Virus record (IMG/VR): IMGVR_UViG_3300032240_000726
Coordinates: 1-31,250 of that record
Direction: 5' to 3' (one strand)
From: a virus
Length of the DNA: 31,250 nucleotides
In this document: positions 4,109-24,177 of the stretch, one piece after another
How the letters are laid out: the number at the start of each line of letters is the position of its first letter
How positions within the stretch are numbered: the stretch's first letter is position 1
Position numbers and translations under genes: made by a program
Notes under the pieces: generated by a model
What the model was told of the DNA's origin: nothing
The model's input: only the letters and a program-made list of their open reading frames with translations
The model's database searches: none

Positions 4109-4177
4109 CTCCGGGATAAAGGGGGCGCTGGCAGACCGTCCTTTTGGGTTGAAGTCTGCCCCCAAATTGGAGGAAGT

Positions 4178-4669: not shown

Positions 4670-4802
4670 GGGATTCAAAAAGTGGTTCAAGTTGGCATGC
4701 TATGTTGCTTGCGCTTGGTGGTTTCTGGATTTTGTGTATGTGTTGCCTGAACCACTCGCCAAGCGGGCGATGGACAAGGCGTTGAGTTATCTTCCCTTTT
4801 AA
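4653..4802 (+). CDS. Small overlapping membrane protein, 49 aa
   Basis: ATG at 4653 lies inside the end of the preceding gene (17-nt overlap, different frame) and reads MQEIVEGFKKWFKLACYVAC then AWWFLDFVYVLPEPLAKRAM to a TAA at 4800-4802. Residues about 11-31 form one aromatic-rich hydrophobic span flanked by Lys residues. The same frame is open further upstream to an ATG at 4536, but that would add 39 residues entirely within the previous gene, so the shorter start is favoured. A small single-span protein just before the lipoprotein and holin could be a holin-like, anti-holin or spanin partner; the sequence does not decide. Short length makes this less certain than its neighbours. Confidence 0.55.
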   Translation: MQEIVEGFKKWFKLACYVACAWWFLDFVYVLPEPLAKRAMDKALSYLPF

Positions 4803-4811
4803 GGAGCGCTT

Positions 4812-5156
4812 GTGAAACATTCAACCCTTCTGTTATGCCTTGCACTGTGTGGCTGCGGTGTTGGTTCTGACTCTACTCCAACAGCCAAAACAATGGCGGT
4901 GCGTTTAAGCGCGGATACACCACCGCCTAGCCCCTTTGTGTTGGGGCCAAGTGGGACACAGGCTACGCCTGTCTCAGCCCCTGTGGTGACGTTTGTCACT
5001 GGCCCTGTGATCGGCCCGATTGCTGTGGTCAACCCACCTATTGTCAGTTCAACGCCCATTGTGCCCACGCCAAACTGGTGTACAGATGGTTTTGTCATTG
5101 GCCCTTGCACTCTTCGTTGCGAGCCTAATCAATTTACTACAGGACCCTGCCCATGA
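4812..5156 (+). CDS. Predicted Pro-rich lipoprotein, possible outer-membrane spanin (Rz1-like)
   Basis: A 114-aa protein with a GTG start preceded by AAGGAG at 5-nt spacing. It starts MKHSTLLLCLALCGCG, a lipoprotein-type signal: Lys, a hydrophobic run, then Cys at about position 15 after L-C-G. The -2 Cys makes the lipobox non-standard. The mature part is about 100 aa, rich in Pro, Val and Thr, with recurring TGP / VIGP segments, and ends in a Cys-rich tail with four Cys (WCTDG, GPCTLRC, GPCP). Pro-rich outer-membrane lipoproteins beside holin and endolysin are typical of Rz1-type o-spanins, so that role is inferred from context. Mature length is greater than classic Rz1. It overlaps the holin start by 4 nt (ATGA). 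Confidence 0.7.
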   Translation: MKHSTLLLCLALCGCGVGSDSTPTAKTMAVRLSADTPPPSPFVLGPSGTQATPVSAPVVTFVTGPVIGPIAVVNPPIVSSTPIVPTPNWCTDGFVIGPCTLRCEPNQFTTGPCP

Positions 5157-6164: not shown

Positions 6165-8036
6165 GTGCCCTTACAAAAAATCCTGTTCAAGCCGGGGGTT
6201 AACCGGGAAAACACACGCTACACGACCGAAGGCGGCTGGTACGAGTGCGACAAAATCCGGTTTCGTCAAGGCAACCCCGAGAAGATCGGTGGATGGACAC
6301 GATTTAGCACTGCCACTTTTCTTGGCATTTGTCGATCGTTGTGGAACTGGGTTACGCTGGCTGGACAAAACCTGATTGGGGTCGGCACAAACCTCAAGTT
6401 CTACATCAATCAGGGCGGCGCGTACTACGACATTACGCCTATTCGGGGCACCAGCACGCTGACCAACCCGTTTGCGGCCACACTGGGTTCGTCCACCATT
6501 ACCGTGACAGCAACAGCGCATGGCGGAGCAACGGGCGATTTTGTGACTTTCAGTGGGGCCACGGGTCTTGGCGGCAACGTTACTGCCGCTGTGCTCAACA
6601 AAGAATATCAAATCACAGTTGTAAACGTCAACAGCTACACCATTACCGTTTCAGTTACAGCTACTGCTGCGGACGTTTCAGGTTCTCCCGGCGGTGGCAC
6701 TGTCTCTGCGGCCTACCAAATTGCTGTGGGTCCGGCCATTGAAGTGCCTCTTGTAGGCTGGGGCGCTGGCGGTTGGGGGCTTGGCACTTGGGGCGTTGGC
6801 CGAACAGCGACCAACTCTTTGCAGCTCTGGAACCAATACAACTTTGGTGAGAATCTGCTGTACGGCCCACGCGGCGCAGGGATTTACTACTGGACAGCAT
6901 CTTCTGGTGTGGGCACTCGGGGCGTTAACTTGACTACATTGGGCGACGCCCAAACCCCAGTAGTGCAGAACTTCATCATCGTGTCTGATACCTCACGGTT
7001 TGTAATTGTAATGGGCACGAACGATCCAAACTCCGCAACACCCAACGCGCTTGACCCCATGTTCATTCGTTGGTCGGATCAGGAAAACCCTTTTGTTTGG
7101 ACTCCCGCCATCACCAACCAAGCCGGTAGCGTGCGCTTGTCGCACGGCTCCCAGATCATCACAGCCATTCAGACCCGGCAAGAAATTGTGACGTTCACGG
7201 ATCAGGCTGTATATTCATTGCAGTACCTTGGGCCTCCCTATGTCTGGGGCACGCAGCTCTTGGGTGACAACATTTCCATCATGGGGCCGAACGCTGTGTC
7301 GTTGGCTTCGGGCGTGGTCTACTGGATGGGCGTAGACAAGTTCTACATGTACGATGGCCGTGTGCAGACGCTTAACTGCGACCTGCGCCGCTATGTGTTT
7401 GGTGACCTTGACCTTGGCCAAGCCCAGCAGGTATTTTCTGGAACCAATGAAGGTTTTAATGAGGTCTGGTGGTTCTACTGCTCCGCCAACTCCACCACGG
7501 TGGACAAATATGTTGTGTTCAACTACCTTGAAAAAATCTGGTACTACGGCACGATGGCCCGTACGGCTTGGCTGGATTCGGGCCTGCTGCCCAACCCAAT
7601 TGCCACTACTTACATCAACAACATCGTCAACCAAGAAGATGGCGTGGACGATAATTCGACTGGCACGGTTGCGCCAATTGACGCGTATATCTCTTCGTCC
7701 GAATTCGATATTGGTGATGGCCACAACTTTGGCTACATCTGGCGTGTGTTGCCGGACTTGACGTTTACCGACTCCAACACCGCCCCTGACGGAAGTCAAG
7801 CGCAAGTCACCATGACGCTGTATCCGATGCAGAACTCAGGTTCTGGCGCGGGCTCCCCGGGTATTGACTACGTCAACAAGATTCCAGCGTACAACATCAC
7901 GGAAGAATTTACCGGCATTGTGTACACACGTGTGCGTGGGCGGCAGTTGATTTTTAAGATTGAGTCCAACCAAATTGGCACAAACTGGCAGCTTGGCGCT
8001 CCACGTATTGATATTCGACCAGACGGAAGACGCTGA
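6165..8036 (+). CDS. Tail hub / packaged-DNA stabilisation-like virion protein
   Basis: A 623-aa protein with a GTG start 8 nt after the endolysin stop and GAGG upstream. It opens LFKPGVNRENTRYTTEGGWY and continues with CDKIRFRQGNPEKIGGW, an N-terminus I recall from many short-tailed phage structural proteins, often labelled tail tubular protein B or stabilisation protein. The rest is beta-rich, Gly/Trp/Thr-rich and has no transmembrane segment. Residues about 106-180 are a Thr/Val-rich strand-forming insert (STITVTATAHGG, GDFVTFSGATG) of a type often found as an Ig-like or HGL-x-x-GD module in phage proteins. Segments such as VYSLQYLGPPYVWGTQLLGD and VVYWMGVDKFYMYDG suggest beta-propeller blades, as in the P22 gp10/T7 gp12 type of tail nozzle. 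Exact assignment is inference. Confidence 0.72.
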   Translation: MPLQKILFKPGVNRENTRYTTEGGWYECDKIRFRQGNPEKIGGWTRFSTATFLGICRSLWNWVTLAGQNLIGVGTNLKFYINQGGAYYDITPIRGTSTLTNPFAATLGSSTITVTATAHGGATGDFVTFSGATGLGGNVTAAVLNKEYQITVVNVNSYTITVSVTATAADVSGSPGGGTVSAAYQIAVGPAIEVPLVGWGAGGWGLGTWGVGRTATNSLQLWNQYNFGENLLYGPRGAGIYYWTASSGVGTRGVNLTTLGDAQTPVVQNFIIVSDTSRFVIVMGTNDPNSATPNALDPMFIRWSDQENPFVWTPAITNQAGSVRLSHGSQIITAIQTRQEIVTFTDQAVYSLQYLGPPYVWGTQLLGDNISIMGPNAVSLASGVVYWMGVDKFYMYDGRVQTLNCDLRRYVFGDLDLGQAQQVFSGTNEGFNEVWWFYCSANSTTVDKYVVFNYLEKIWYYGTMARTAWLDSGLLPNPIATTYINNIVNQEDGVDDNSTGTVAPIDAYISSSEFDIGDGHNFGYIWRVLPDLTFTDSNTAPDGSQAQVTMTLYPMQNSGSGAGSPGIDYVNKIPAYNITEEFTGIVYTRVRGRQLIFKIESNQIGTNWQLGAPRIDIRPDGRR

Positions 8037-8345: not shown

Positions 8346-11300
8346 ATGAGCCTTCACACCCTTGCTACACACATGGCCCAACATGGGCGCGGACCAGATT
8401 CAATGCTGGTGCACATGTCCCCCCGCGAAGTCCAAAGCCTGCAAGCGCTGGCCAAAGCAACGGGCGGCACACTGACGCTCAACCCCCATACCGGGTTGCC
8501 TGAAGCTGGGTGGTTGGACAAACTATTTCCTGCACTTGCGGGGTTTGCCCTAGATATGTTTGTGCCCGGTTTGGGCGAGGCAATTGGCGGGGCATTGGGA
8601 ACTTCTGCGGCTGTTGGTACCGGTATTGCTGTTGGCGGTATTACCGGTCTGGCCACCGGCAGTTTGCAACAAGGTCTGATGGCGGGCTTGGGTGCGTATG
8701 GCGGCGCTGGGTTAAGCGCGGGATTGACGGCTGCGGGAATTGAAAATATTGGCGCTTCCCAATTATCGGCAGCAAATGCAGCGGCAGACCCAATAGCAGC
8801 CCTTGCAGAAGAAAAAGCCGCGCTAATGCCTGCGGCAGGCACGCCGGGAATTGATACGATTTCCAAAGGTTTTGACAACGTTACATCCAACCCATCTTCC
8901 GCCCTCCAGTTTGTTAAAGACAACGGCAAGTCGCTGCTGGCTGCAACGTCTCCCATGTTGGCAGGATCGGGCGTGCAGACAACAACTCCTATACCACAGA
9001 CGCCTAGCTACTATCGCCCATTCATGTACGATCCTCAGACCCAAGGTCTGCAAGCCCTAACGCCTGTCAGTGGCAAAGGGATCAAAAAAGGCGGCTTACT
9101 GAGTTTGGCCAACGGCGGAGCCGTTGCCTTTGCCGATGGTGGGTCGCCTGATGACCAGCCGGATTTGTTCCAGAAAATCTACGGACGCGCAGGTACGGCA
9201 GAAGAACAAGCTGCTATGGCTGGTAAATCGGCAGAAGAAGAACGCGCAATCCTTCAGCAATCGATTGATGCTTGGAACCAGTCGCATCCCAGCGCTGCGC
9301 CACAAGCACAGCCGCAACCACAGCCGCAACCACAAGACCAACCTCAAGCACAGGCCCAAGCGGCTGCGCCCACATCTTCCCCAGATGCAAACGCGGCTCC
9401 CCAGATTACGGACGAGCAACGCAAATTCATTGACTGGCAAGCCAAGCAGAACGACCCGATGCAGCAGGGCATCATTGCAGACGAGTGGGCACGCGCAGGC
9501 ATCACCGACCCGTACTCCAATGCTACGCTGATTAAAAATGCGCAAGCCGCAATTGACAACGCAAACCGTCGCATCAAAGAAACTGGCGGCACCGACGTTG
9601 CTCAATGGAACGATCCCAACTGGCAGAAGTATTTGGGCACCAACAAAGATGCGTTCAACATTGGCACGCAAGTCAAAAACGATCCAGCGTTTGCTGCACA
9701 GTTCTCTAAGCAAACTGGGTTGACTGGTGCCAATTTAAATGCATGGGTTACTGCCGCTACCGATCCTTATGCCGCCGCAGTTCAAAATGCAGGTACGCCA
9801 TCTAAATTCACCGTGGGTGGAGGTGGCGGCTCACAGTCAACAGACACTAGCCAGATTCGACGTCCCGGCCAAGCCATTACTGAAGGCGAAAACTATTCAC
9901 GCCAATATACACCCGACCAATTGACTGGTTTGAGTGCGCTATGGACTAAGTACGGTAGTGATCCTACGGCCATGAAACAGGCAATGCAGCAGTATGGCAT
10001 TACTGCTGATGATATTGGTTTGGCAACGGGGCAGTCTAAAACCCAACTGCAAAAATACTTTGGTGATACATCAAGCCTAACAGGTGACGCCACTAAAGGT
10101 ACGGGGTTATCTGGCCTGACAGACCAAAGCCTTAATGCTACAAGCGCATTTGATATGTTGGATACGCAAGGCCGACGTCAATTTTTCAGTGATTGGGCAA
10201 AACAGCACGATGTTTATGGAATGTCGTCTCCCGGCATGACAGCCGATGATGGGTCGTTTACCCCTTGGGCAACAAAAGACCCATTAACTGTTGCGCAAAG
10301 CAAAGCGCTTGATGCAAGTTGGGTAAAAGCAATCGCGGACTACAACAAAGAACACCCTTTTACATCTTTTTCGTTAGACAAAGCTAAACCCGATGTCCCC
10401 GCAGCAGGCGGTACGCCGACAGCTAACGCATCAGGCATCCAGACTTTGACCAACGCAAACGCACTTGCGTCCAACACACCCCCGCGCGATACACCTGCAC
10501 CATCCGGCATCCAGCAATTGACAAAAGACGGCCACCTTGTTGACCCCACAACTGGTCACTTGCTGAACCCAACATTGACGGCGGCTCAGTTGTCCGAAGC
10601 TAAAGGCAATATGCCCGAGATGCAGTCCGCATATCAAGCGTACTGGGATTCCGTAAAGCCCGGTGACATTTTGGATTTTGCTGGCGGCACATTGACACGT
10701 AATACGGACGGAACAGCTACGCATACTTACACGGACGCTAACGGCAAAAAACAGTCTTACACGTTTAACCAAAACACTGATTTTTCAACTGTGGCCAAGT
10801 CCGATCCCAACATTGCCAAAGAGTGGAAGGACATGTTTAACTACGCCCCACCAAAAGATACAGGTGCGCCTATTATTCAAACACCCGGCCCGACACAAAC
10901 ATCCGTGCCAACCGGCGGCAGCGGGACTGCGGGTTCAGCAACAACACGTGCATTTAACTGGCAGCAAACCCCGATTGACCGCTTGCCTACCGTGGCACAG
11001 AAGAAGCCTGAAGAAGCAATGTCTGGCGAGTCGCTTGCAGCCTACAACGCGTTGTTTGGCAAAGGTTCTACCGCTACAAAAGCATGGACCACGTACCCCG
11101 GTCGCAACTACTTGCCAAATACTGGTCAAGGGTTTTATGTGCAGCACGGCGGAGCAGCATCGTCTTCAAACCCAACGTCTTCCAGTTCGTCAACTACAGA
11201 CAAAACGCAGCCTACAACTGAACAATTAAACGACAAAACCACCATGCCATCGCAGTCCCCCGGTGAAGGGTATCACTGGGTGTGGATTGATAGCCCCGGT

Positions 11301-11693
11301 GCAAAACACTGGGTCTCTGTTCCAATTGAGCCCGACACTACCGGCGGGTCCAGCCCGGGCGGCGCAGCCAATGGCGGTTTAATGGGTTATGCAGGCGGCG
11401 GGCTTGGCTCGTTGGGCGGTTACTCTGATGGCGGCAGATTGCTGCGCGGCCCGGGCGATGGCGTTTCGGACTCGATTCCTGCCTCGATTGGTAATCGCCA
11501 GCCTGCCCGCCTTGCCGATGGTGAGTTCGTTGTGCCTGCCCGCATTGTGTCGGAGTTGGGTAACGGCTCTACCGAAGCTGGCGCTCGTCGCCTGTACCAG
11601 ATGATGGACCGTGTGCAGAACGCCCGCAAGAAGTCGGTCGGCAAAGGCAACGTGGCTAAGAACAGCCGCGCCGAACAATACCTTCCCGCATAA
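8346..11693 (+). CDS. Large virion protein with glycine-zipper region and ADGEFVVP motif, possible ejection protein
   Basis: A 1115-aa protein of low overall complexity. Residues about 56-131 form a hydrophobic Gly/Ala-rich stretch with GxxxG spacing (GLGEAIGGALGTSAA, GIAVGGITGLATG, AGLGAYGGAGLSAG) that could insert in or cross a membrane. A Gln/Pro/Ala linker follows at about residue 318, with two exact 12-bp units at 9309-9332. The middle is Thr/Asn/Asp-rich with no recognised enzyme. The C-terminus has YAGGG and YSDGG motifs, then PGDGVSDSIPASI, RQPARLADGEFVVP and a helix (ARRLYQMMDRVQNARKKS), a block I recall from virion proteins of many marine and freshwater phages. ANGGAVAFADGG occurs near residue 255. 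The gene sits with other very large virion genes; a role in DNA ejection or as an internal core protein is inferred. Confidence 0.75.
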   Translation: MSLHTLATHMAQHGRGPDSMLVHMSPREVQSLQALAKATGGTLTLNPHTGLPEAGWLDKLFPALAGFALDMFVPGLGEAIGGALGTSAAVGTGIAVGGITGLATGSLQQGLMAGLGAYGGAGLSAGLTAAGIENIGASQLSAANAAADPIAALAEEKAALMPAAGTPGIDTISKGFDNVTSNPSSALQFVKDNGKSLLAATSPMLAGSGVQTTTPIPQTPSYYRPFMYDPQTQGLQALTPVSGKGIKKGGLLSLANGGAVAFADGGSPDDQPDLFQKIYGRAGTAEEQAAMAGKSAEEERAILQQSIDAWNQSHPSAAPQAQPQPQPQPQDQPQAQAQAAAPTSSPDANAAPQITDEQRKFIDWQAKQNDPMQQGIIADEWARAGITDPYSNATLIKNAQAAIDNANRRIKETGGTDVAQWNDPNWQKYLGTNKDAFNIGTQVKNDPAFAAQFSKQTGLTGANLNAWVTAATDPYAAAVQNAGTPSKFTVGGGGGSQSTDTSQIRRPGQAITEGENYSRQYTPDQLTGLSALWTKYGSDPTAMKQAMQQYGITADDIGLATGQSKTQLQKYFGDTSSLTGDATKGTGLSGLTDQSLNATSAFDMLDTQGRRQFFSDWAKQHDVYGMSSPGMTADDGSFTPWATKDPLTVAQSKALDASWVKAIADYNKEHPFTSFSLDKAKPDVPAAGGTPTANASGIQTLTNANALASNTPPRDTPAPSGIQQLTKDGHLVDPTTGHLLNPTLTAAQLSEAKGNMPEMQSAYQAYWDSVKPGDILDFAGGTLTRNTDGTATHTYTDANGKKQSYTFNQNTDFSTVAKSDPNIAKEWKDMFNYAPPKDTGAPIIQTPGPTQTSVPTGGSGTAGSATTRAFNWQQTPIDRLPTVAQKKPEEAMSGESLAAYNALFGKGSTATKAWTTYPGRNYLPNTGQGFYVQHGGAASSSNPTSSSSSTTDKTQPTTEQLNDKTTMPSQSPGEGYHWVWIDSPGAKHWVSVPIEPDTTGGSSPGGAANGGLMGYAGGGLGSLGGYSDGGRLLRGPGDGVSDSIPASIGNRQPARLADGEFVVPARIVSELGNGSTEAGARRLYQMMDRVQNARKKSVGKGNVAKNSRAEQYLPA

Positions 11694-11702
11694 GGAGACA
11701 GC

Positions 11703-13085
11703 ATGTCTGATCCACAATTCACACAACAACAGATAACGCAGACCACCATCCCTGACTATGCTCGGCGCTATGTCGAGAACTTGTTGGGCGCTGGCGAAGG
11801 CACACTGTTCAATTACCAAAAAGACGCGCAGGGTAACCCCGTCCTTGACTCTTCTGGAATGCCTATTCCTGCGGGGTTTCAGCCGTACCAGCAGTACACA
11901 GGTGAGCGTCAAGCCCAGTTTACGCCGTTGCAACAGCAAGCGTTTGAAGCTGCGGGTCAGTTGCAGGTTCCCGGTCAGATGTACGACGCATCGCAGATGG
12001 CCAAATTGGCCACGCAAACGGCTGGACAGACTGCGTACAAACCGTCCAACTATCAGTCGTCCATGGTGCAGGCCCCACAGATTAGCCAGTACCAGATGCA
12101 AGGGCCGCAGGAGGTAACAGCAAAAAACTTCACTGACGCTGGCGTGGCCAGCCAGTACATGAACCCGTACCAGCAACAGGTCACGGATATTCAAAAGCGT
12201 GAAGCCCAGCGCCAAGCAGGTATTGCAGCCACCCAACGCGGTGCACAAGCCGCAGGAGCCGGTGCGTTTGGCGGTTCTCGCCAAGCCATCATGGACGCAG
12301 AAGCCGCCCGCAACTTGTCGCAACAGATGAACGACATCCAAGCGCAGGGGTCAAACCAAGCGTACACCCAAGGCATGAGCCAGTTCAATGCGGATCAAGC
12401 GCGTGCCTTACAAGCAGGCATGGGCAACCAGCAGATGGGGTACAACGTCAACAACGCCAACCTTCAGTCGTTGTTGGGCACACAGCAGTTGGGCACAGGC
12501 CAAAGTCTGCAAGCGCAGTTGGCCAACCAGCAAGCCATGAATGCCATGAACCAGCTCAACGAGCAGTCGTCCCAGTATGGGGCGGGCTTGGGGCTGCAAG
12601 GTCTTCAGACGGCTTTGTCCGGCGCGGGTCAGTTGGGTAATTTGGGCCAGAACATCTACGCCCAAAACCAAGGCAACTTAACAATGCAGAATCAGTTTGG
12701 CACGCAGCAGCAGGCCCAGATTCAAAACATGTTGAACAACAACTACCAAGACTTTCAGAACGCGCAGAACATGCCGTACAAACAGATGGGCTTCATGTCC
12801 GATCTGTTGCGCGGAACGCAAGGTCTTGGTCAGTCAAACGTGTACCAGTATGCACCTACGCCCAGCCCGATGTCTCAATTGGCGGGTTTAGGTACGGCTG
12901 CGTATGCCACCAGCAAAGCGTTTGGTTCAGCCGACGGCGGCATGATTAAAGACAAGTACGCTGATGGCGGCGCTGTTGACCGTCCTGTGTATGCCCACGC
13001 ATTCGATAACGGCTCGGGCTACGCCCGTGGTGGTAAAGTTAAAGGGCACGGCTTGGCTGACTTGGCCTTGTCTCGCATGGCGTAA
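11703..13085 (+). CDS. Gln/Asn-rich virion protein, 460 aa
   Basis: A 460-aa protein with a clear SD (AAGGAGAC) 9 nt after the previous stop. It begins with FTQQQITQTTIPDYARRYVE and is unusually rich in Gln, Asn, Ala and Gly. Residues about 155-205 (QQQVTDIQKREAQRQAG, then AATQRGAQAAGAGAFGGSRQ) and the long central part have an 11-residue-like helical periodicity of Gln/Ala/Leu, suggesting extended coiled-coil bundles. The last 50 residues carry ADGGMIKDKYADGGAV and GYARGGKVKGHG, motifs shared with the genes on either side. I recall homologues in uncultured freshwater phages without known function. No membrane segment or catalytic motif is seen. An internal virion or ejection-channel role is inferred from neighbours. 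Confidence 0.75.
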   Translation: MSDPQFTQQQITQTTIPDYARRYVENLLGAGEGTLFNYQKDAQGNPVLDSSGMPIPAGFQPYQQYTGERQAQFTPLQQQAFEAAGQLQVPGQMYDASQMAKLATQTAGQTAYKPSNYQSSMVQAPQISQYQMQGPQEVTAKNFTDAGVASQYMNPYQQQVTDIQKREAQRQAGIAATQRGAQAAGAGAFGGSRQAIMDAEAARNLSQQMNDIQAQGSNQAYTQGMSQFNADQARALQAGMGNQQMGYNVNNANLQSLLGTQQLGTGQSLQAQLANQQAMNAMNQLNEQSSQYGAGLGLQGLQTALSGAGQLGNLGQNIYAQNQGNLTMQNQFGTQQQAQIQNMLNNNYQDFQNAQNMPYKQMGFMSDLLRGTQGLGQSNVYQYAPTPSPMSQLAGLGTAAYATSKAFGSADGGMIKDKYADGGAVDRPVYAHAFDNGSGYARGGKVKGHGLADLALSRMA

Positions 13086-13094: not shown

Positions 13095-15287
13095 ATGGCA
13101 ATCCCAAATCCAAACCAGATCACATCCGTTTTGCGGATGATGCCCGACCAGCAGTTGCAACAGTACGCTGCAATGCACAAGGATGACCCTTACATTTTCC
13201 CCATGGCATTTGCGGAGAGCAACGCACGCAAGGAAGCGCGTGCCGCGCAGCAGGCTATGGCGATGGGCCAGCCCCAGCCCAAGGTGGTCGATCAGGATTT
13301 GATGGCGATGGCTTCCCAGCCGCCCATCCCCCCACAAGGGGGGATGCCCCAAGGCGGGCCTCAGATGGCCCAGCAGCAGTTGCCCGAGCATCAAGGCATC
13401 GGTGCGTTGCCTGCCCAGAACATTCAGCACATGGCTGATGGCGGTATCGCTGGCTACGCTGGCGGCGGTATGGATGAGCAGTTGGCCTACAACAACGAAC
13501 CCGTTATGCGCATGGCGGGCGGCGGAGCCGTCCAACATTTTGCTGAAAAAGGTGCAGTGAACCCCAGCGGTTTTACACCTGAGATGCAGCAGTACTTGCT
13601 GGAGCAAGCGCAAGCAAACAACGTCGATCCACAGGCTTTGATGGCTATTGTAAAAGCAGAAAGCCGTGGAAAAGTTGGCGCTCAAAGCGACACATCAACA
13701 GCGCACGGTTTGTTTCAAATTATTGATAAAACTTTTAAAAATGCTGGCGGCGATCCTGCCAAGCGCCATGATCCGTTTGAGAACATCCGTGTCGGAGCCA
13801 AGCTGCTGGGCGACAACGCCAAAGTTTTGCGCAACCAGTTGAAGCGAGACCCTAGCCCGGACGAGCTGTACGCTACGCACTTCCTTGGGACAGGCACAGG
13901 CGGTAAGTTGCTGCAAGCGCATCCTGACACGCCGATGTCGAGCTTCTTGTATTCTGCTGACAAAGAGAATGCTGACAAAATTATGTCTAGCAATAAGAAA
14001 CTGCTGGGCGGCAAAACCGTTGGTGAAGTACGCCAGACCTTGGCCAACAAACTGTTCAGCGCCATTCCTATGGGCGCAGCAAACGCTGCGACTGTTCCGT
14101 CGGGACCACCAACTGTATCGCCCCAAGGCACACCCGGTGATCTGGCGTCCCAAATCCCGGGCCAACGCGCGCAAGCGCCTGCGTCTACAGCCGAACAAGA
14201 GAATTCATATTTTGGACGGTTGGCGGACACACTGGGTATTTCGCCAGAAGTTCAGCGCAATATCAACAACACGTTGAATGCGGCGGGGGGTTACTCGTCT
14301 CCAGTCAGCACAGCAAACCGTATGGTCGGGGTGGCATCGGGCGCATTAAAAGCTACACCAGAAATGATTGCCGAAGCTGAAAAAGCACGCCGTATAGCCA
14401 ACACTGTTCGGTTACCCGCTCCTGCTAAAGCAGGTCTTGAAGCCCTTGATGCCGCGTCCCAAGCAACCCGCGATGCCGCTGTAGCGGCCCGACAAGCCCG
14501 TAACTTGGAACAAGACCGTAGAGCCGCAACGGCTGCGGAACAATCCGTTAAAGCGGCTGATGAGACAGCCAACATTGCCCGCAAAACCGAAGAAGGTATC
14601 GCGGCTGTGCCCCGCGCACAAGCGGCAAACACAGCCAAAGCAGTAAATGCAGCACGGACTCTATCTGTTAATCAGTTTGGCGAGTCTATGTTTCCAAACA
14701 AAGAAGCTGCTGCTACTGCTGGGGCCAAAGAAAGCCCTTACGACGTGGAAGACATGCGCAAGGCCGAGCCTATGCCCACCGCCAAAGAAGCCGTGGATGC
14801 CGCCAAAGCAGAGTTGCCTGCCAAGGAACGCAAGGGCATGAACTACGACGACCTGCTGGCGTTTGGTTTGAACTTGATGGCAGGCACTTCTCCCAACGCT
14901 TTGACCAACGTTGGTGCTGCGGGTATTGCGGCTTTGAAGAACAAGCAAGAGCGTGAGAAGGCTGAGCAAGACCTTGAGTACAAGGACATCATGAAGAAGT
15001 ACTACGGCTCGTTGGGCAAGAAGGCCGAGTCTGAGGCTTCTTATCTGGCGTCAGGAGAAAAAGGCCGGATGGCCGATCGCCAAAAAGCTGTGGCCGAAAT
15101 TCAAGCAAGCATGGACGCATGGGCCAAAGCAAAAGCCGGTATGTACACACCGGAAGAGGAAGAAGCCCAGCGTAGAAAACTGACGCAGTACTTCTTTAAT
15201 GCGTACGAATTACCGATTCCCGCTACAATGTCGTCTACAACCGGAGGTGGGTTGCCTCAAGGTGTCAAGGTGACGCCGTACGGTTAA
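13095..15287 (+). CDS. Virion-associated lytic transglycosylase (SLT domain)
   Basis: A 730-aa protein; AAGGA lies 7 nt before ATG. Residues about 160-270 are a soluble-lytic-transglycosylase-like domain: ALMAIVKAESRGKVGAQS places the catalytic Glu at 189, and TAHGLFQIIDKTF (205-210) is the conserved G-L-F/M-Q-I block after it. Such enzymes cut the MurNAc-GlcNAc bond to a 1,6-anhydro product. Residues 112-154 carry MADGGIAGYAGGG and MAGGGAVQHFA, shared with the two preceding proteins. The remainder is Ala/Lys/Glu-rich coiled coil (about 400-560 and 600-690). A transglycosylase embedded in a long virion protein, separate from the GH108 endolysin, fits local wall penetration during DNA entry as in T7 gp16; that role is inferred. 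Confidence 0.85.
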   Translation: MAIPNPNQITSVLRMMPDQQLQQYAAMHKDDPYIFPMAFAESNARKEARAAQQAMAMGQPQPKVVDQDLMAMASQPPIPPQGGMPQGGPQMAQQQLPEHQGIGALPAQNIQHMADGGIAGYAGGGMDEQLAYNNEPVMRMAGGGAVQHFAEKGAVNPSGFTPEMQQYLLEQAQANNVDPQALMAIVKAESRGKVGAQSDTSTAHGLFQIIDKTFKNAGGDPAKRHDPFENIRVGAKLLGDNAKVLRNQLKRDPSPDELYATHFLGTGTGGKLLQAHPDTPMSSFLYSADKENADKIMSSNKKLLGGKTVGEVRQTLANKLFSAIPMGAANAATVPSGPPTVSPQGTPGDLASQIPGQRAQAPASTAEQENSYFGRLADTLGISPEVQRNINNTLNAAGGYSSPVSTANRMVGVASGALKATPEMIAEAEKARRIANTVRLPAPAKAGLEALDAASQATRDAAVAARQARNLEQDRRAATAAEQSVKAADETANIARKTEEGIAAVPRAQAANTAKAVNAARTLSVNQFGESMFPNKEAAATAGAKESPYDVEDMRKAEPMPTAKEAVDAAKAELPAKERKGMNYDDLLAFGLNLMAGTSPNALTNVGAAGIAALKNKQEREKAEQDLEYKDIMKKYYGSLGKKAESEASYLASGEKGRMADRQKAVAEIQASMDAWAKAKAGMYTPEEEEAQRRKLTQYFFNAYELPIPATMSSTTGGGLPQGVKVTPYG

Positions 15288-15306: not shown

Positions 15307-18300
15307 ATGCCGCTATACCAAGTCGAAATCCCCGGTCGGGGAAAGTTCAAAGTCGAATCTCCGACAGAGCTTACGGATGAACAGGCCTACGAGGCCGTCA
15401 TGCGGGACATTGGTAACGAACCCCCACCCAAGTCTGGTATTCTTGCAGCCCTCGGCAAGGGCACAGAGTCCACGCTAAGCCAGCTTCGTTCTGGTTTATC
15501 TGGTGCGTTGGGTTCTGGCGAAGAAGCCGCCACTGCCGGGTTGCAGCGCGGCGAAGCCATCAACCGCAAGTACGCCGACCAAGTTAGCCTTGAGAAAGTC
15601 AAGGAAGCGTATGAGAAGAACGGTCTGCTGTCTGCGGCCAAAGAAGTAGCAGGCCAAGTCCCTGCTGCGATCGCTGAACAAGCCCCGAACCTTGCTACTG
15701 CTTTTGGTGGCGCTCGTCTTGGCGCTATGGCTGGCTCTGCGTTGGGTCCAGTCGGCGCAGTGGTTGGCGGTGGTCTGGGCGCTTTTGCCCCTTCCCTGAT
15801 TCAACAGTTCGGTGGGAACATCGAGCGTCAGGCGCAGGAACAAAGGAACCGGGGGGAAGAAGTCTCTATCAACAAAGGGGCGGCGGGGGCCGCAGCCCTT
15901 CCTCAAGCTGCTTTGGACGTAGCGCAGACGTTCATTCCTTTTGGCGGCAAGCTCATCAGCAAACTGACGGGTATCCCAGAAGCTGCGTTCTTCAGCAAAG
16001 CAGCCGGGCAGGCAGAGAAGCTGGCCAACGAGCGGCTCTTGACCACGCTGGCCAAAGGCACAGCCACCGGTATCTTGGCTGAAATCCCCCCAGAAATTGG
16101 CCAACAGATGTTAGAGCGGGCGCAAGCTGGCTTGTCGTTGACCGACCAAGACGCCATGAAAGAGTACGGCCAGACGGCGTACCAGATTGGTTTGCTCGGC
16201 CCGTTGGGTGCTGTGGGTCGTCTGTCAGAAAAAAGCGCAGCCCGTCAAGAGCTTGCCGCTCGGCAAGAAGCACCAGAGCCAACAACCCCTGCGGCACCGC
16301 AAGAAACCCAAGAGCCGATGCTGGCGTTGCCCCCACCTTCTGCTGAACAGATTGGGACCGAAGTACAGCCTGTCACCCGTGGCTTTAACGAAGCCCTTCG
16401 CGCTGGCGCTGTCATGGGCAACATGGACACCAGCCGCCTCGCCCAACCCGGAGCCTTGGCTACGCCTGCACCAGACCTGAACAGGGAGATGGAGCAGCAC
16501 GACCAGTTAAAACGGACTCTGGAAGCCATGCAGATGCAGTTGCAGACAGCAGCAGCGGCAGGCGATACAGCAACGATCAAAGCGTTGCACCCAAAATATG
16601 CGGAACTTGAGCAGCAGGTGCAGGCATCTGCCCAAAACATTGAGAATTTGGGCGGAACAACCCAGACGTTGGCTGAGCTGGAGACGCAATCCAAAGCCCA
16701 ACTGCAAACGCTGAACAACAAGATCAAGTCCGCACAGAAGAAGCTGGCCGATTCCGCGCAGCTTGGCGACTTTGGAGCGCTGCCAAAACTGACAGAGAAG
16801 CTGGATGAACTCAAGCAAGAACACGCCGACCTGACCGAGACCTATGGCAAGAAGCGTGGGGTACTGGAAGAAAAGCAACTTAACCAACAACAGCGTGGGC
16901 AGACCCGTGAGTTGTTTACACAACAAGAAGCCCCTCCATCCCCAGCAGAAAAACCCGCAGGCTACGACCAACACAAACCTGTGCAGGGTTTTGCCGCTAC
17001 GCCAGCCGAGGCCCAAGGAATTGAGCCCTCAAAAGTTGCTGCGCCCACTGAAGTGGTCAGAGAAGAAAAGGTTGCCACGCCTGAGTCCACCGCTGCCGCA
17101 GAAAAGATGTATGCCGAAATCCAAGATTTGGAAGGACAAGTGGCACGTCTGCGCGGTAAAGAAATTCCAGCGAACGCGGACAGGATTGCCAAGCTGAACA
17201 AGCTCAAAGAAGCCTACGTTTCGGCCACAAAGCCAGCACCGTTGGATACGCGCTCGATTGATCTGTTCAGTGAGCAGAACATCATCAACACTGCTATTCA
17301 AAGCGGCGATCAGGCCACGCTTGAAAAAGTGGCCAAGGCTCGGATAGAAGAAGAGAGAAAGACTCAGCGCCAGCGCAGCGAAGAGAAAGCTGCCGAACGT
17401 GATCGTTTGCTAACGTCCTTGGACGAGCGTCTGGGATTGGCTGGCCAAAAAGTTGAGCGCACTGCCACGCCAGAAGAGTACGACTCGGTCATGGATCAGA
17501 TCGACGTTTACAAACGCGCCATTGAAAATCCACAAGGCAACGCCAACAAGTCAATCTTGCAGCAACTGTACGATCTGACGGCTGAACACGAGAAGCTGAC
17601 AGCGCAGCTTGAGAGTGGCATAGCTACGCCTACCCTGCGTGAGAAAGCCATGCAGATTGGCAAAGGCACGCAACCTGCTCCTCGGCAGATGGATGCATCA
17701 GAACGTTTCCAGATGCGCCGCCGTATTGATACGATTGCCAAACGCTACCAGCATCTTGTCGATACCAAGGTCAAACCAGCACGCGAAGCCATCGTTGCTT
17801 TGCATCAAAGCCTGTACAAAAAAGCTCCCGCCGCTAAAGCGGAACAGATTCGTGCTGAAAAAGAAGCCGAGTCAGCGCGACAAGTCGAGTCTACAAAACG
17901 GCGAGACAAGAACTGGCACGCCCCGTTGCTTGATAAACCTGTTGGCGCTGTTATGAGTCGTGCGGCTAAGACAGCCAAGCGCATCAATGAAGGTAACGTA
18001 ACCCGAGAAGCCTCCAAGACCGCAGCGCTTGAGAAACTGGCATTTGATTTGGGTATTGCCACGCCTGAGTACGGGAACATGATTACCGAGCAGGCTCGGC
18101 GTATTGAAGCATTGAAGAAAAGGTACGGCGAAAACGACAAAGCAGTCAACGAGTACCGCAACCAAGTGACAACAGAACGGGATGTAAAAGCCCGGGAGCT
18201 GGGGTACAAAACACCCGAGTACAAACAGGCACTGAAAGAGCAGTCTAAGAAACTCACTGAAGCCGTGGCTGCGTCAGGGCCAATGGAGCCCGCATCCAAG

Positions 18301-21300
18301 CGCACCCAACAAGAAACACGCAAAGTAAAACGCGCCAAACAGGAAGAACGCACAGGTTCTCCAGAAAGCCGTGCGGCTACAGAGAAGCGGGCCATCGCTC
18401 TCAAGCGCCAAGACTTGAAGGATTTTGAAGAAGGTATCGCTTCTGAGAAAGAAGGCCGCGAATTCTTGCGTGGTGTTGAGACCGAGAGCTTAGAACTGAA
18501 CAAAGACATCGTGGCTGCACTGGAGCAGGGCGATGTACGCAAGGCACTGGACCTGCTTAGCAAAGACAAGAACGCCGACTCCTTTAGCCGTGCTGTGGCT
18601 GAGCGTCTTACACCGTTCCTTGATGTCACAAAAGTCAACATTGAAAACGATCTGCGTGACCCTGACGGCAAAGAAGTCTTGGGCGCTGCAACCAGCAAGC
18701 TGATTGAGCTGAACCGCAATGGCGGTCTGTCGGTTGAAACATTGCTGCACGAGTCCACTCACGCGGCGGTTGAGCGCGTGATCCAGTTGGCCGAGAAGAG
18801 CCCAGACTCGTTGACCAAAGAGCAGCGTGTCGCCATCAATGAACTGAAAGCGTTGCACGCCCAGATCAAGAAAGATTCCGGCATCACCAGCAAGAACGCC
18901 AAGGGTAGCCTGTCGGAGTTTGTGGCCGAGGTCATGTCGAACCGCAACCTGCAAAAGCAGTTGGCACAGCGCAAGTGGCGTCTGTCCAATATGTGGCAAG
19001 GCATCAAGTCTATCTTCATGACCATGCTCGGTTTGAAGAAAGTCGAGACCATGTTCGGCGCATCGGTAGTTTCCATCGAGCAGTTGTTTGTTCCCGCCAG
19101 CTCCACAGTAGGCAACGCAACGACTGAACAGAAGGTGAACCGAAACCTGTCCGCCAAGGACATTGCCGCGCTGCATACCGGTAGTAACTCGATGAAGCAG
19201 TTTGCCGACCAGTTCGGCCCGCTCATCAAGCAGAAAGACCGCACACCAGAAGACGCCGAGCGTATTGCCGACGAGCAGATTGACGCGATGCTGGCCAGCG
19301 TGCGGCCATACAGCCGACTGACCGCCGAAGGTCGGGCTATGCCTGCACTGCGTAGGGATTTGAAAGAAGCTGCGGACGCCGAACACAATGCCAAGTCTGT
19401 CGTAGCGTTGCCTACCGCTGATACGCTTGACTACAAGGGCATGATTACCATGTCTGACGGCAAGACGTACGATCCAAACAACCCGCTGCACTACGTGGAA
19501 GCAGGCCCGGCTACGTTTGCTGCACTGCAAGCTATGGAAAATCCCACGCTTCGTCGACGTGAGGCCGAAGAGATCGCCGCTAAACGCCGAGAAGACTTCC
19601 AAAGCCTTGGCGACTACTTGCAGTCCAATTACAAAAACTACACCACAGTCGAACAAGCACTGGTGTTAAAGGCTGCGGCCAAGTACGCGGTTCTTTCCGA
19701 CAAGAATGGCCGATTGAAGTTGGCTGAAATTGGAAGAGACAACCGCCACAACATTGCGGTCGTTGGCAAGGAAGCAGCAGACGCTGTGATCGAACAGCTT
19801 CGCGCAGGCAAAAACCTGAAGCAGGCTTTTTTGGATGGCCTGCAAAAGAACGCCGACGAAAGCGCCAAGAACAATGAGCGCAAAAGCGGTTGGAAAAAGT
19901 TTGACCAAGCTGAAGAACAAGAGTTTCTTCCCAATCTGTATACCAAAAAAGAAATTGATGAGGCAATCAAAAAAACAAATTTGACAGACGAAGACATTCA
20001 AGAAGTGGGTTTGGACGAAGAGTCCCTGATTGGTTATCTAATTCAAAATGGGTATCTTCCCGATCGCCAAAAATCAAGCGAAGAAGCTGCAATTAATCTG
20101 AACGCTGGTTGCGCGGGCACGCCTTGGTGTACAGGCGCCAGTGTGAACACGGCTCGCGGCCAAATTGAAAAAGGCGACTTCTACGTCTACTACAAGAACG
20201 GTCGTCCGGAAGTTGCTGTTCGCATGGACGGCAAGGATAGGATTGGTGAAGTTCGCGGCAACAACCCCAACCAAGCACTTAACGCTGAACAGCAGCAGAT
20301 TGCTGAAGCGTTTTTACGGAGCCAGCAATTTAAAGACACAGACAGGTACTTGTCGGAGTTTACTCGTCGTGAAACACTGATTAAACGGGCAAAGGGTGAA
20401 GCCCCGCTTAAAGTTACCGATCTGTTTGATGCAAAAAACATTGTCAACGACGAAGGAAAAATTGACGATCGCGCCATCAGGCAATTACTGGCTTTCCGTA
20501 CGATTGATGGCTACGGAAACAGACCGGACCCAACAGACACTGTTGTTAATTTCTTTGGTCAGCAATACGTAACCGCCGTTAAAAAAGCGTACGAGAACAA
20601 CCAGTTTATTTTTGCAAGCATCGATGTAAAAATTGCCGCAAGTCCTGAAGGCGATGAAACTGAGTTTGCAGGTAAAAAATATAAAGTGTTTGCAAACACT
20701 TTAAAAGCAGCAAAAGAAATTACGGTGGCATTTGGATGGCGGGATGATACTGCTATTCCAATTGAACTGCCTCGCCTTGAACACGTGCAAGACATTGATG
20801 TGTTCAAAGGAACTGTTTCATTGCCTGCGTTAGACACTGTTGATGAAATTCGTTTTTATTCAACGCTAAAAGAAAACGTGCTGGCAAAAGTAATATTGCC
20901 TCCAGACGCTGTGGTTAAGCACGTAATGGGTACCAGTAGAAATGCGGTGGGGATTGTTGCGGGGGTTCAAACGATTCAAACAGTGCAATTAAGAAACGGT
21001 TTGGAAGGGTTGACGCTTGATTTACCGGATACAAAATACGTAAAGGTGGTTAACAGCGACCGTTCACTCAATGGCGACATTGCGTCTGCCGCGTTGGTCA
21101 AACTTGGTGACGTCCTGTACAACAACGGGTGGACATATACACGAAAAGACGCAGCGGTAAATAATAGAACATCGGATACAGTAACAGAAAAAGATATTAA
21201 AGAATATCAAGCTCTTGTTGCGCCTACAATAAAAGAGTTTTTTAGCAGTATTAAACAGTTGTTTGGCACAAAAACTTTTGAAGCGTTAAACAGCGATGAT

Positions 21301-24177
21301 TATATAAACAAGAAAAAAGATCAGTTCGATTATTTTGCGGCAGTATACAATGCCACAGATAAAATTTTAAAAGATAATAATTACTCTCAAGATACCGTTG
21401 ATAAGTTAATTGGTTTAGCAGAAAAAATTTCAGGCAAAAAAATCGAGCAGCCCAAAGCAGAACTGATTGCGCCCAAACTGGTGGGAGAAACACCGCCAGC
21501 CAGCGTGTACACCGAAGCCCCTGAAGAGCGCCGCTTTGCGCCCAAGGATGCAGGCGTTCAGAAAGACAAGGACGGCACGTTCTCGTTCGTGCGTAAGCCT
21601 ACGCGTTCATCGTCTGTGGTTGCACAAGAAATGGGGATTGGTGACCAAATTCTGGGCAACATCATGGGCTTGGCTGGCCGCGTCCAGTATATTGACCAGT
21701 ACGCCGCGCTGGAAGCCGTTACTAAAAAGGGCTTGTCCGCAGGACAGATCAGCTCTTTGGAAGCTACCAACGCCAACTACCTGTTGCGCTTTGGCCAACA
21801 GCGTAGCCAGTTTGCGGGTCAGTTCCTGACCAATGGTCCTGTCAAGGCAGAGATCACCAAGAAGGACGGCGGCACAGAGACCATCTACCGCAGCACCAAA
21901 GGCACGTCGATGCTGGACGTAGCATCCGCACTGAACAAGGCCAAGCTGTCCGATGACGTCGAACAAGAGAACATGTTCACGCTGTACCTTGCAGGCAAAC
22001 GGGCCAACCAAGTGGGCTGGGAAAAGCTGAACTTCAAGAACCCCGGTCAAGCCAAGGCAGAGTACGAAGCGGTCATGGCGCGGCTGAACAATAACAATGC
22101 CGCCAAGGCTGCGTTTGAAGAGGCATCCAAGCTGTACCAAGAGTACAACGCAGGCCTGTTGGATTTCTTGGTCCAGACTGGGGCACTGCCGCCAACCAAA
22201 GCAGCCGAGCTGAAGAAGATCAGCTACGTTCCGTTCTACCGCATCAGCGGCAACGGCGAAGTGCAATTGATGATTGACAAGGAACACCCCGTTCGTATTG
22301 CCAACATCAAGGATCAGCCGCAGCTCAAAGAGTTGGTGGGCGGTAACACTGCCATCTTGCCGATCTTCACCAGCGCTGCGCAGAACACGTTCATGATTAC
22401 AGGCATGGGTCTGCGCAACCAAGCGGTCAAGGAGACTGCTTTCATGCTGCACAAGCTGGGCGTAGCCAGCGTGCTCCGTACGGGTAATGGGCCAGAGGGT
22501 TCCAACGTCATCCGGTTCCAAAAGAACGGCGAGAACCACTACGCTCTGGTTGACACAGACATGTACGGCATCCCTGCCGAGCTGATTGTTCGCGGCATGG
22601 AAGGGATCAAGACCACCATCCCAGCAGTCATCAAGGCCATGGGTGTACCAGCCAATCTGTTGCGCTCGTTTGTTGTGCGTAACCCAGCCTACGCTTTGCG
22701 TCAGGTTGTGCGCGATCCGTTAAACGCTTGGCTGACCACTGGCACAGACGCCACGCCTGTGTTGTCTTCCATGAAAGAGCTGGCCGCTATGGTGGCTGGC
22801 CGCAGTGAAGCCGAGCGCAAACTCATGGAGACCGGGGCTATTAGCAGCAACGTCTACAGCGGCGATGAGCGCGACATGGCCAAGTTCCTCAAAGACATGT
22901 CCGCAGGGCGGTCAGGTTGGGACAAAGCCATGGCTAAGCTCGATGCGTTTGCGCTGCAAGGCGACTCCGCTACTCGCGCTGTGATCTACAAAGACTCGCT
23001 GGCCAAGGGCATGAGCGAACAGGAAGCCCTGCTGCGCACACTGGAGTCAATGAACTTCAGCCGCCGTGGCGTATCGCCCAGCATGCAGGCGTTGTCTGTT
23101 TTGATCCCGTTCTTCAACGCCCAGATTCAAGGTCTGGATGTGTTGTACCGTGCGTTCAAAGGCGACATGCCGTACAGCGAACAGCTCAAGATCAGAGAAA
23201 AACTGGTCACGCGTGGTCTGTTGTTGGCCGCAGGCACGATTGCGTATGTAGGCATGATGTCGGATGACGAAGCGTACAAACGCGCCAAGCCTGAAGAACG
23301 CTACGGCAACTGGTTCGTGTACGTCCCCGGTTTTAATGAGCCTGTGCGTGTGCCAATCCCGTTTGAATTGGGTTACCTGTTCAAGGCGTTGCCGGAAGCC
23401 GTCATCAATATGGCGGCAGATGATCCACGGGCAGACAACGCAGTCAGCGGCTACTTCAAACTGATTGCCCAGACCAACCCGTTCAGCTTGCCGCAGGCGG
23501 TCAAACCCATTACCGAAGTGGTGCTGGGCAAGTCGTTCTTTGGTGGTGACATCGAGTCGGCTCGGGAGAAACAAATCCTGCCATCGGAGCGTTACCGCAA
23601 CGACAGCACAGAGCTGGCCAAACTGATCGGCAGTATTACCGCCAACAAAGCTGTCAAGGCTGTGACGGGCAAGGAAGGTCTGACCCCAATCGACATTGAC
23701 TACCTGATTCGTGGTTACACGGGTGGTCTGGGTCTCGGTCTGGTGCAGTTGGCCAACCCGATCCTGAACACCGAGATGACGGCAGAGGTAGCCAAGCCTA
23801 CGCTCAAGGCCAGCAAGCTACCTTTGATTGGCGGTATCTTCCAGCCAGTTGAAGGACGGGGCACGTTGGATCAAGCGTACAACATGATGTCTGAAATCCA
23901 GCAGACCAAGGGCACGCTCAACCGGATGATCGAGCAAGGCAAACAAGCCGAAGCCCGAGCGTTCGCGCAAGAGAACGCCAACGCGTTGTCAATGGCCTCC
24001 GTGTCCGGCGCAGTGCAGCAACGGTTGGGTGAGCTGGCTAAACGCCGCCGCCAGATCGAAGCGGCTCCTCGCTTGACCACAGAGCAGAAGGACGACTTGC
24101 TGGAGAAAATCGACCAAGCGCAAACCGATCTGGCTAGGCAGTTCTTGCAGCGCGGCGATAGAACCAAACGCCAATGA
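15307..24177 (+). CDS. Giant polyvalent virion protein (2956 aa) with HExxH motif, WCTG/leucine-rich insert and LPD38-like C-terminus
   Basis: One uninterrupted frame with GAGG before ATG. Residues 1-35 (LYQVEIPGRGKFKVESPTEL) are a small N-terminal module. Residues about 128-170 are a Gly/Ala-rich hydrophobic zipper. Long coiled coils fill about 380-1080. HESTH at 1148-1152, with Glu1204 or Glu1208 in SEFVAEV as possible third ligand, is a zinc metallopeptidase-like arrangement seen in large polyvalent phage and plasmid proteins. Residues about 1530-2045 hold an insert with GTPWCTG (Trp1607, Cys1608), GDFYVYYKNGRPEVAVRM, then irregular leucine-rich-like strands, in DNA much richer in A+T. Residues about 2060-2956 resemble the LPD38 domain (GDSATRAVIYKDSL, NFSRRG, VLIPFFNAQIQGLDVLY). 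Probably packaged and ejected with DNA; no polymerase motif seen. Function is inferred. Confidence 0.8.
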   Translation: MPLYQVEIPGRGKFKVESPTELTDEQAYEAVMRDIGNEPPPKSGILAALGKGTESTLSQLRSGLSGALGSGEEAATAGLQRGEAINRKYADQVSLEKVKEAYEKNGLLSAAKEVAGQVPAAIAEQAPNLATAFGGARLGAMAGSALGPVGAVVGGGLGAFAPSLIQQFGGNIERQAQEQRNRGEEVSINKGAAGAAALPQAALDVAQTFIPFGGKLISKLTGIPEAAFFSKAAGQAEKLANERLLTTLAKGTATGILAEIPPEIGQQMLERAQAGLSLTDQDAMKEYGQTAYQIGLLGPLGAVGRLSEKSAARQELAARQEAPEPTTPAAPQETQEPMLALPPPSAEQIGTEVQPVTRGFNEALRAGAVMGNMDTSRLAQPGALATPAPDLNREMEQHDQLKRTLEAMQMQLQTAAAAGDTATIKALHPKYAELEQQVQASAQNIENLGGTTQTLAELETQSKAQLQTLNNKIKSAQKKLADSAQLGDFGALPKLTEKLDELKQEHADLTETYGKKRGVLEEKQLNQQQRGQTRELFTQQEAPPSPAEKPAGYDQHKPVQGFAATPAEAQGIEPSKVAAPTEVVREEKVATPESTAAAEKMYAEIQDLEGQVARLRGKEIPANADRIAKLNKLKEAYVSATKPAPLDTRSIDLFSEQNIINTAIQSGDQATLEKVAKARIEEERKTQRQRSEEKAAERDRLLTSLDERLGLAGQKVERTATPEEYDSVMDQIDVYKRAIENPQGNANKSILQQLYDLTAEHEKLTAQLESGIATPTLREKAMQIGKGTQPAPRQMDASERFQMRRRIDTIAKRYQHLVDTKVKPAREAIVALHQSLYKKAPAAKAEQIRAEKEAESARQVESTKRRDKNWHAPLLDKPVGAVMSRAAKTAKRINEGNVTREASKTAALEKLAFDLGIATPEYGNMITEQARRIEALKKRYGENDKAVNEYRNQVTTERDVKARELGYKTPEYKQALKEQSKKLTEAVAASGPMEPASKRTQQETRKVKRAKQEERTGSPESRAATEKRAIALKRQDLKDFEEGIASEKEGREFLRGVETESLELNKDIVAALEQGDVRKALDLLSKDKNADSFSRAVAERLTPFLDVTKVNIENDLRDPDGKEVLGAATSKLIELNRNGGLSVETLLHESTHAAVERVIQLAEKSPDSLTKEQRVAINELKALHAQIKKDSGITSKNAKGSLSEFVAEVMSNRNLQKQLAQRKWRLSNMWQGIKSIFMTMLGLKKVETMFGASVVSIEQLFVPASSTVGNATTEQKVNRNLSAKDIAALHTGSNSMKQFADQFGPLIKQKDRTPEDAERIADEQIDAMLASVRPYSRLTAEGRAMPALRRDLKEAADAEHNAKSVVALPTADTLDYKGMITMSDGKTYDPNNPLHYVEAGPATFAALQAMENPTLRRREAEEIAAKRREDFQSLGDYLQSNYKNYTTVEQALVLKAAAKYAVLSDKNGRLKLAEIGRDNRHNIAVVGKEAADAVIEQLRAGKNLKQAFLDGLQKNADESAKNNERKSGWKKFDQAEEQEFLPNLYTKKEIDEAIKKTNLTDEDIQEVGLDEESLIGYLIQNGYLPDRQKSSEEAAINLNAGCAGTPWCTGASVNTARGQIEKGDFYVYYKNGRPEVAVRMDGKDRIGEVRGNNPNQALNAEQQQIAEAFLRSQQFKDTDRYLSEFTRRETLIKRAKGEAPLKVTDLFDAKNIVNDEGKIDDRAIRQLLAFRTIDGYGNRPDPTDTVVNFFGQQYVTAVKKAYENNQFIFASIDVKIAASPEGDETEFAGKKYKVFANTLKAAKEITVAFGWRDDTAIPIELPRLEHVQDIDVFKGTVSLPALDTVDEIRFYSTLKENVLAKVILPPDAVVKHVMGTSRNAVGIVAGVQTIQTVQLRNGLEGLTLDLPDTKYVKVVNSDRSLNGDIASAALVKLGDVLYNNGWTYTRKDAAVNNRTSDTVTEKDIKEYQALVAPTIKEFFSSIKQLFGTKTFEALNSDDYINKKKDQFDYFAAVYNATDKILKDNNYSQDTVDKLIGLAEKISGKKIEQPKAELIAPKLVGETPPASVYTEAPEERRFAPKDAGVQKDKDGTFSFVRKPTRSSSVVAQEMGIGDQILGNIMGLAGRVQYIDQYAALEAVTKKGLSAGQISSLEATNANYLLRFGQQRSQFAGQFLTNGPVKAEITKKDGGTETIYRSTKGTSMLDVASALNKAKLSDDVEQENMFTLYLAGKRANQVGWEKLNFKNPGQAKAEYEAVMARLNNNNAAKAAFEEASKLYQEYNAGLLDFLVQTGALPPTKAAELKKISYVPFYRISGNGEVQLMIDKEHPVRIANIKDQPQLKELVGGNTAILPIFTSAAQNTFMITGMGLRNQAVKETAFMLHKLGVASVLRTGNGPEGSNVIRFQKNGENHYALVDTDMYGIPAELIVRGMEGIKTTIPAVIKAMGVPANLLRSFVVRNPAYALRQVVRDPLNAWLTTGTDATPVLSSMKELAAMVAGRSEAERKLMETGAISSNVYSGDERDMAKFLKDMSAGRSGWDKAMAKLDAFALQGDSATRAVIYKDSLAKGMSEQEALLRTLESMNFSRRGVSPSMQALSVLIPFFNAQIQGLDVLYRAFKGDMPYSEQLKIREKLVTRGLLLAAGTIAYVGMMSDDEAYKRAKPEERYGNWFVYVPGFNEPVRVPIPFELGYLFKALPEAVINMAADDPRADNAVSGYFKLIAQTNPFSLPQAVKPITEVVLGKSFFGGDIESAREKQILPSERYRNDSTELAKLIGSITANKAVKAVTGKEGLTPIDIDYLIRGYTGGLGLGLVQLANPILNTEMTAEVAKPTLKASKLPLIGGIFQPVEGRGTLDQAYNMMSEIQQTKGTLNRMIEQGKQAEARAFAQENANALSMASVSGAVQQRLGELAKRRRQIEAAPRLTTEQKDDLLEKIDQAQTDLARQFLQRGDRTKRQ
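19900..21450 (+). other. AT-rich island inside the giant virion gene
   Basis: Base composition drops sharply within the reading frame. Hand counts of 60-base rows give about 30% GC at 21181-21240 and 32% at 21301-21360, against about 60% at 22921-22980. Lys and Asn codons become AAA/AAT-rich and Ile/Phe rise. The island encodes the WCTG/DFYVYY module and the leucine-rich-like strands. Borders are approximate: the composition is mixed between 19600 and 20300 and returns to the gene norm near 21450. No flanking repeat or mobile-element gene is visible. The simplest reading is a domain acquired from another genome and joined in frame. Confidence 0.7.

Follow-up and report, generated by a model that had tools for sequence, protein, structure and literature searches.

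Phage-type polyvalent proteins, as described by Iyer et al. (2017, PMC5512222), are very large multidomain polypeptides that carry zincin-like metallopeptidase (MPTase) modules and LPD38 and have been proposed to be ejected with the genome. Polyvalent giants that combine MPTase and LPD38 are thus already known; such proteins are known effector bags. The best evidence that an LPD38 giant is a virion protein is that 51 unique peptides of the 4515-aa gp69 of Burkholderia phage JC1, which has LPD38 at residues 4195–4401, were detected in CsCl-purified virions (PMC9144972). The N4 virion RNA polymerase (vRNAP) also has an MPTase and is packaged unprocessed (PMC5512222), so that MPTase-driven processing of an ejected giant is not a given.

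We analyzed a window of 31,250 bases, an IMG/VR virus record, in which one plus-strand reading frame (15307–24177) runs from an ATG without internal stop through 2956 codons, as originally predicted. The encoded giant belongs to the phage polyvalent proteins, the kind to which it had been assigned from the sequence: it is a single large phage polypeptide with several domains, among them LPD38 and an MPTase-like module. The accompanying suggestion, that it could process virion proteins or disarm host defenses at entry, is a conjecture. It differs from the proteins of Iyer et al. in that this module, which we call clade A, matches no Pfam peptidase model and the cargo that follows it, a MID-WCTG-solenoid cassette, matches no Pfam family; the terms PcfJ and leucine-rich are absent from the text of that paper (PMC5512222). 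With JC1 gp69 and the DarB-like giant Bcep22 gp75 (PMC9144972) it shares LPD38 near the C-terminus and a place at the end of the virion gene module. JC1 gp69 has been shown in virions. The cargo of gp69 and gp75 consists of transglycosylase, methylase, DarB-type helicase and LPD3 rather than MPTase-WCTG-solenoid. The C-terminal region of N4-type vRNAPs is similar in placing an HEXXH module in an ejected giant, and the vRNAP of Vibrio phage phi 1 is a Foldseek match, but no RNA polymerase was found in the window protein.

Gene neighborhood and chassis of the giant

The giant is the last plus-strand gene of its run. The same run contains a structural protein gene (6165–8036, plus strand), a gene for a 1115-aa protein with no family match (8346–11693, plus strand) and, in the operon of the giant, a DNA ejection protein-like gene (phrog_4287; 11703–13085, plus strand) and the gene of a 730-aa SLT transglycosylase-containing protein (13095–15287, plus strand) immediately upstream. 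Minus-strand replication genes (DUF927 primase/helicase, helicase) lie 3' of the giant, and all four relatives inspected have ejection protein, SLT, giant and primase in this order. Judged by this gene order, the giant has the position and neighbors that an internal virion (ejection) protein would have in a tailed phage, probably one of podovirus type. Elsewhere in the window, a 1159-aa tail fiber or spike ending in Peptidase_S74 (74–3553, plus strand) contains many tandem repeats of ~17 residues (51-nt spacing). Relatives of the 8346–11693 product share only ~90–130 residues at 70–80% identity and the remainder is variable, a pattern like that of tail appendages whose anchor is conserved.

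The C-terminal part of the giant forms a conserved chassis module (residues 2051–2956; 21457–24174, plus strand), recognized by sequence and predicted fold. The LPD38-like end of the original prediction was confirmed by a match to PF18857 (E 2e-28, 100.2 bits vs a cut-off of 27, model positions 1–189 of 189), but LPD38 itself is narrower than claimed (residues 2654–2841; 23266–23829, plus strand) and lies within the wider conserved module of residues ~2054–2956, for which there are at least 493 relatives among viral contigs. The predicted structure of this module (mean pLDDT 69, pTM 0.64) matches many phage giants, including LPD38 giants (best TM 0.84, normalized to the query), with TM 0.69 for Escherichia phage PTXU04 and 0.64 for Ralstonia phage Alix. 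Given the conserved gene order and the virion-proven LPD38 relative, we suggest a role for the chassis in particle loading and ejection. The giant is probably packaged in the particle and delivered into the cell along with the DNA; its presence in virions is inferred by homology to JC1 gp69 (PMC9144972).

The N-terminal ~45 residues (MPLYQVEIPGRGKFKVESP...; 15307–15441, plus strand) differ between otherwise near-identical giants (L016 vs L040) and occur in several forms, such as MPIYSVQGPDGRIYDVEGP..., MAKYLTLPDGSSFEMKEGQ... and MELSQVLQALRNADAAGD... (e.g. in L016, L040 and L025). We consider these variable forms possible virion-loading tags. The glycine zipper that had been noted is visible in the sequence as a glycine-rich, zipper-like segment (residues 130–165; 15694–15801, plus strand) and falls under the Pfam cut-off (E 0.31). 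Sequence comparison identifies residues ~380–1040 (16444–18426, plus strand) as a weakly conserved helical, charged linker. A PARP_reg match was disregarded, being below the cut-off (E 0.007) and present in one member alone.

A metallopeptidase-like module and its replacement

Residues 1060–1250 (18484–19056, plus strand) make up the clade A metallopeptidase-like module, delimited by conservation and a structural model. As anticipated, HESTH, an HExxH motif, occupies residues 1148–1152 (18748–18762, plus strand) within a predicted helix, and acidic candidates for the third zinc ligand follow in the next conserved predicted helix, namely E1204 and E1208 of SLSEFVAEV (residues 1201–1209; the two glutamates span 18916–18930, plus strand). 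The H, E and H of the motif and both downstream glutamates are invariant in 37 of 37 relatives whose mean column identity is 34%, so the motif is no product of chance. In an AF2 model of residues 1060–2051 (mean pLDDT 82, pTM 0.59; model numbering plus 1059 gives protein numbering), DSSP assigns a helix at model positions 33–46, strands at 50–54, 67–69 and 73–77, the HESTH helix at 84–105, insert helices, and a helix at 143–152 that holds E1204 and E1208. This succession of helix, three strands, HExxH helix and glutamate helix, which concerns the order of elements and not zinc geometry, is the order of helix, three strands and two helices of the polyvalent-protein zincin core (PMC5512222). Together, the invariant HExxH, the glutamate in the next conserved helix and the predicted core order point to a zincin-like MPTase.

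Matches to known zincins were sought in several ways. No Pfam peptidase model matched; neither the whole protein nor a profile of residues 1045–1700 found a sequence match in the PDB at E limits of 1 and 10; and Foldseek of the 1060–2051 model against the PDB yielded noise only and no solved zincin. The metallopeptidase-like part of the original prediction is supported, but in view of these negative searches we call the module zincin-like rather than a member of a named peptidase family. Against viral models (BFVD), Foldseek matched internal core proteins and a virion-encapsulated RNA polymerase (E 3.6e-4); these matches are local and the aligned part of the query is not reported, so they are not assignable to the peptidase module.

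A census of 85 nonredundant relatives reveals two alternatives at this position. Clade A is present in 45, whereas another 38 carry, just before the C-terminal chassis, a module with an HEXXXH motif (HExxGHYG), which we call clade B; the remaining two are truncated before the position. A metallopeptidase motif is thus found there in all 83 nontruncated relatives examined. An HEXXXH set is present among polyvalent MPTases (PMC5512222). Outside the motif, profiles of the two clades show no alignment (hhalign probability 0.5%), and we rejected homology between them as undetectable. Since there is no profile similarity outside the motif, the function appears to have been kept while the domain was replaced: a peptidase-type motif seems to be required at a fixed position, and the domain that supplies it can apparently change. 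WCTG cargo accompanies 38 of the 45 clade A modules and none of the 38 of clade B; in the seven clade A proteins without the cassette the peptidase motif directly precedes the C-terminal module. Among clade B giants, close pairs (L126, L128, L130, L135 and L136) vary most at residues ~300–900.

A portable cassette and the exchange of its solenoid

Between the peptidase-like module and the chassis lie three elements. MID (residues 1273–1545; 19123–19941, plus strand) was found by sequence comparison to travel with WCTG cargo. The WCTG/GDFYxYY/IGEVRG domain (residues 1595–1689; 20089–20373, plus strand) has homologs in bacterial genomes and contains the two motifs that were first noticed in the sequence, PWCTG at 1606–1610 and DFYVYY at 1624–1629. 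The exchangeable solenoid region, defined by the model and by comparisons, comprises residues 1690–2050 (20374–21456, plus strand), with a predicted beta-solenoid core at ~1766–1917; in the AF2 model strands recur at ~20-residue steps, with helices before and after. The original prediction had described a leucine-rich part, and a short-repeat region does exist there, but it is better called a beta-solenoid of short repeats, given the ~20-residue strand steps of the model, the 19-aa period in L187 and the 21-aa period in bacterial homologs. LRR models of Pfam leave the window protein itself unmatched and match only bacterial homologs such as L234. A short-period solenoid is also what it has in common with LRR_5/BspA-like and DUF4097 (Toastrack) repeat proteins, yet the window's own solenoid is matched by neither family, whereas L234 is matched by both and L187 by DUF4097.

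The WCTG domain and solenoid-like repeats also occur in two giants that lack the LPD38 chassis. One (L187, 3851 aa) contains Kinase-PolyVal, repeats with a 19-aa period and the DUF4097 match; in the other (L189, 4438 aa) the WCTG domain is followed by solenoid-like repeats. By these comparisons the WCTG/solenoid part is a portable cassette. A tblastn search of isolate phages and plasmids with residues 1270–1700 gave no credible match. The WCTG domain is colinear with PcfJ (PF14284) in the order C, helix, three strands, RG, N/Q, helix, and a relation is possible; in hhalign the comparison has P 0.009–0.022, a probability score of only 2–5% and no Pfam match, and with such weak statistics we do not claim it.

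Comparisons of closely related phages show that the solenoid is allelically exchanged, which, like the cellular homologs of the cassette, was no part of the original prediction. The DNA of L025 and L028 is mostly 94–99% identical over ~5.7–21.6 kb and 58–62% identical at 11.7–12.6 kb, which is the solenoid. In the window's own clade, the proteins of L016 and L040 are 98–100% identical before MID, once the first 100 residues are passed, and mostly 97–100% identical past the cassette, vs 41% in the solenoid. L042 and L044 are 98–100% identical over most of the locus and 74–84% in the solenoid, with a second drop to 50–60% at the end of the SLT protein and the start of the giant; in the L042 locus these two parts diverge together at ~3601–5100. 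Among 33 pairs with a C-terminal identity of at least 88%, which share members and are not independent, the solenoid has a mean identity of 0.52 vs 0.80–0.94 elsewhere, and in 28 of them conservation is lowest there. It is not the sole mosaic part, since the N-terminal tag and the linker are strongly variable in some pairs.

Between L025 and L028 the synonymous-site difference is 0.65 in the solenoid, 0.30–0.34 in MID and WCTG, and 0.10–0.17 in the N-terminal, linker, metallopeptidase-like and C-terminal modules, which suggests that the alleles most likely arrived through recombination and not through point changes. Hydrophobic positions largely stay hydrophobic between alleles (82–94%). Assembly chimeras are an unlikely cause of the pattern because some alleles recur across independent assemblies and samples (L025/L029, L026/L027). 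A diversity-generating retroelement was rejected, as the window holds no further copy of the solenoid and the variation, over ~900 bases, includes synonymous sites.

In bacterial genomes, a scan with residues 1045–1700 found no homolog. With the WCTG domain alone, 203 stretches were found to encode the domain, and the 78 loci kept are mostly metagenome-assembled genomes of Bacilli/Tenericutes and Patescibacteria. The domain typically lies near residue 250–340 of a 600–900-aa protein; what comes after it is a solenoid of 21-residue period in most Bacilli and other sequence in many Patescibacteria. When 106 phage and bacterial WCTG domains are aligned, conservation reaches at least 97% at W, C, T, G-D-F-Y, R, E, R-G and Q. 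Pfam and NCBIfam hold no named domain for the WCTG region of the bacterial proteins tested, and, as far as these searches go, which cover open-access papers and a few terms, a WCTG-solenoid cassette with cellular homologs is undescribed.

Proposed function

We tentatively propose, with a confidence that approaches an even chance and stays short of it, that the giant is an ejection (internal virion) protein of the phage, its last and largest, that it processes itself and that it thereby frees a cassette for a variable host target. Its N-terminal tag, together with the LPD38 module at the C-terminus, would load it into the particle and send it out with the DNA; the clade A module would cut it, in the particle or after entry; and cutting would free the MID-WCTG-solenoid cassette in the host cell. 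There the solenoid, which we read as the target-recognition part of this ejected, self-processed protein, would bind a molecule that varies from one host to the next, and the WCTG domain would act on that target or on a common partner. The very different repeat versions that are swapped are as expected of a part that matches changing host targets, and the exchange, at a fixed position, of metallopeptidase-type clades that look unrelated supports the proposed need for a built-in protease. Put more broadly, and held with slightly greater reserve, the giant could be a virion-delivered polymorphic effector, in which a fixed chassis (tag, metallopeptidase and LPD38) bears an allelically exchanged WCTG-solenoid head for host targets that vary, with relatives in a widespread and so far unnamed family of WCTG-solenoid proteins that Bacilli and Patescibacteria encode on their chromosomes.

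The variation of the solenoid might instead track the receptor or cell envelope met on entry rather than an intracellular target, the solenoid then being a part of the virion that contacts the receptor. That envelope-related parts vary too is suggested by L042 and L044, whose only other strong drop in identity falls on the C-terminal part of the SLT protein and the start of the giant. We nevertheless regard this as unlikely given that the homologs in Bacilli and Patescibacteria are chromosomal, lie near housekeeping genes and show no sign of a role in adsorption, and that in L187 the cassette is within a protein bearing a polyvalent kinase domain.

It has also to be considered that the effector is the metallopeptidase module, which would cleave host proteins with the solenoid as an exosite that chooses the substrate. 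The peptidase adjoins the cassette, WCTG cargo is confined to clade A in the census, and host targeting is among the options listed for MPTases (PMC5512222); however, the seven clade A proteins that lack the cassette retain the motif before the C-terminal module, suggesting a role tied to the chassis, and we find this explanation improbable to a similar degree. We give still less credence to a mainly structural giant that scaffolds the ejection conduit and whose HExxH module is catalytically dead or serves packaging only. The homologous region of the N4 vRNAP is indeed needed for encapsidation of a protein that remains unprocessed (PMC5512222), but against a dead module stand H, E, H and E, strictly invariant in 37 divergent sequences, and the replacement clade, which, dissimilar as it is, likewise bears a metallopeptidase motif.

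In an ejected protein, wholesale exchange of a cassette between otherwise near-identical phages points to the part under host-specific selection and makes that part directly testable, and Bacilli and Patescibacteria, with their chromosomal WCTG-solenoid family, offer cellular proteins that might reveal its function. Tandem copies of WCTG genes occur at 5 of the 78 bacterial loci. At one of them, in an uncultured Bacilli metagenome-assembled genome, three tandem chromosomal WCTG-solenoid genes lie between gyrB and gyrA (L205, 7257–13444). In two bacterial WCTG proteins (L230 and L277) DUF4116 repeats replace the 21-residue solenoid as the C-terminal part, as if the repeat part of these proteins were interchangeable.
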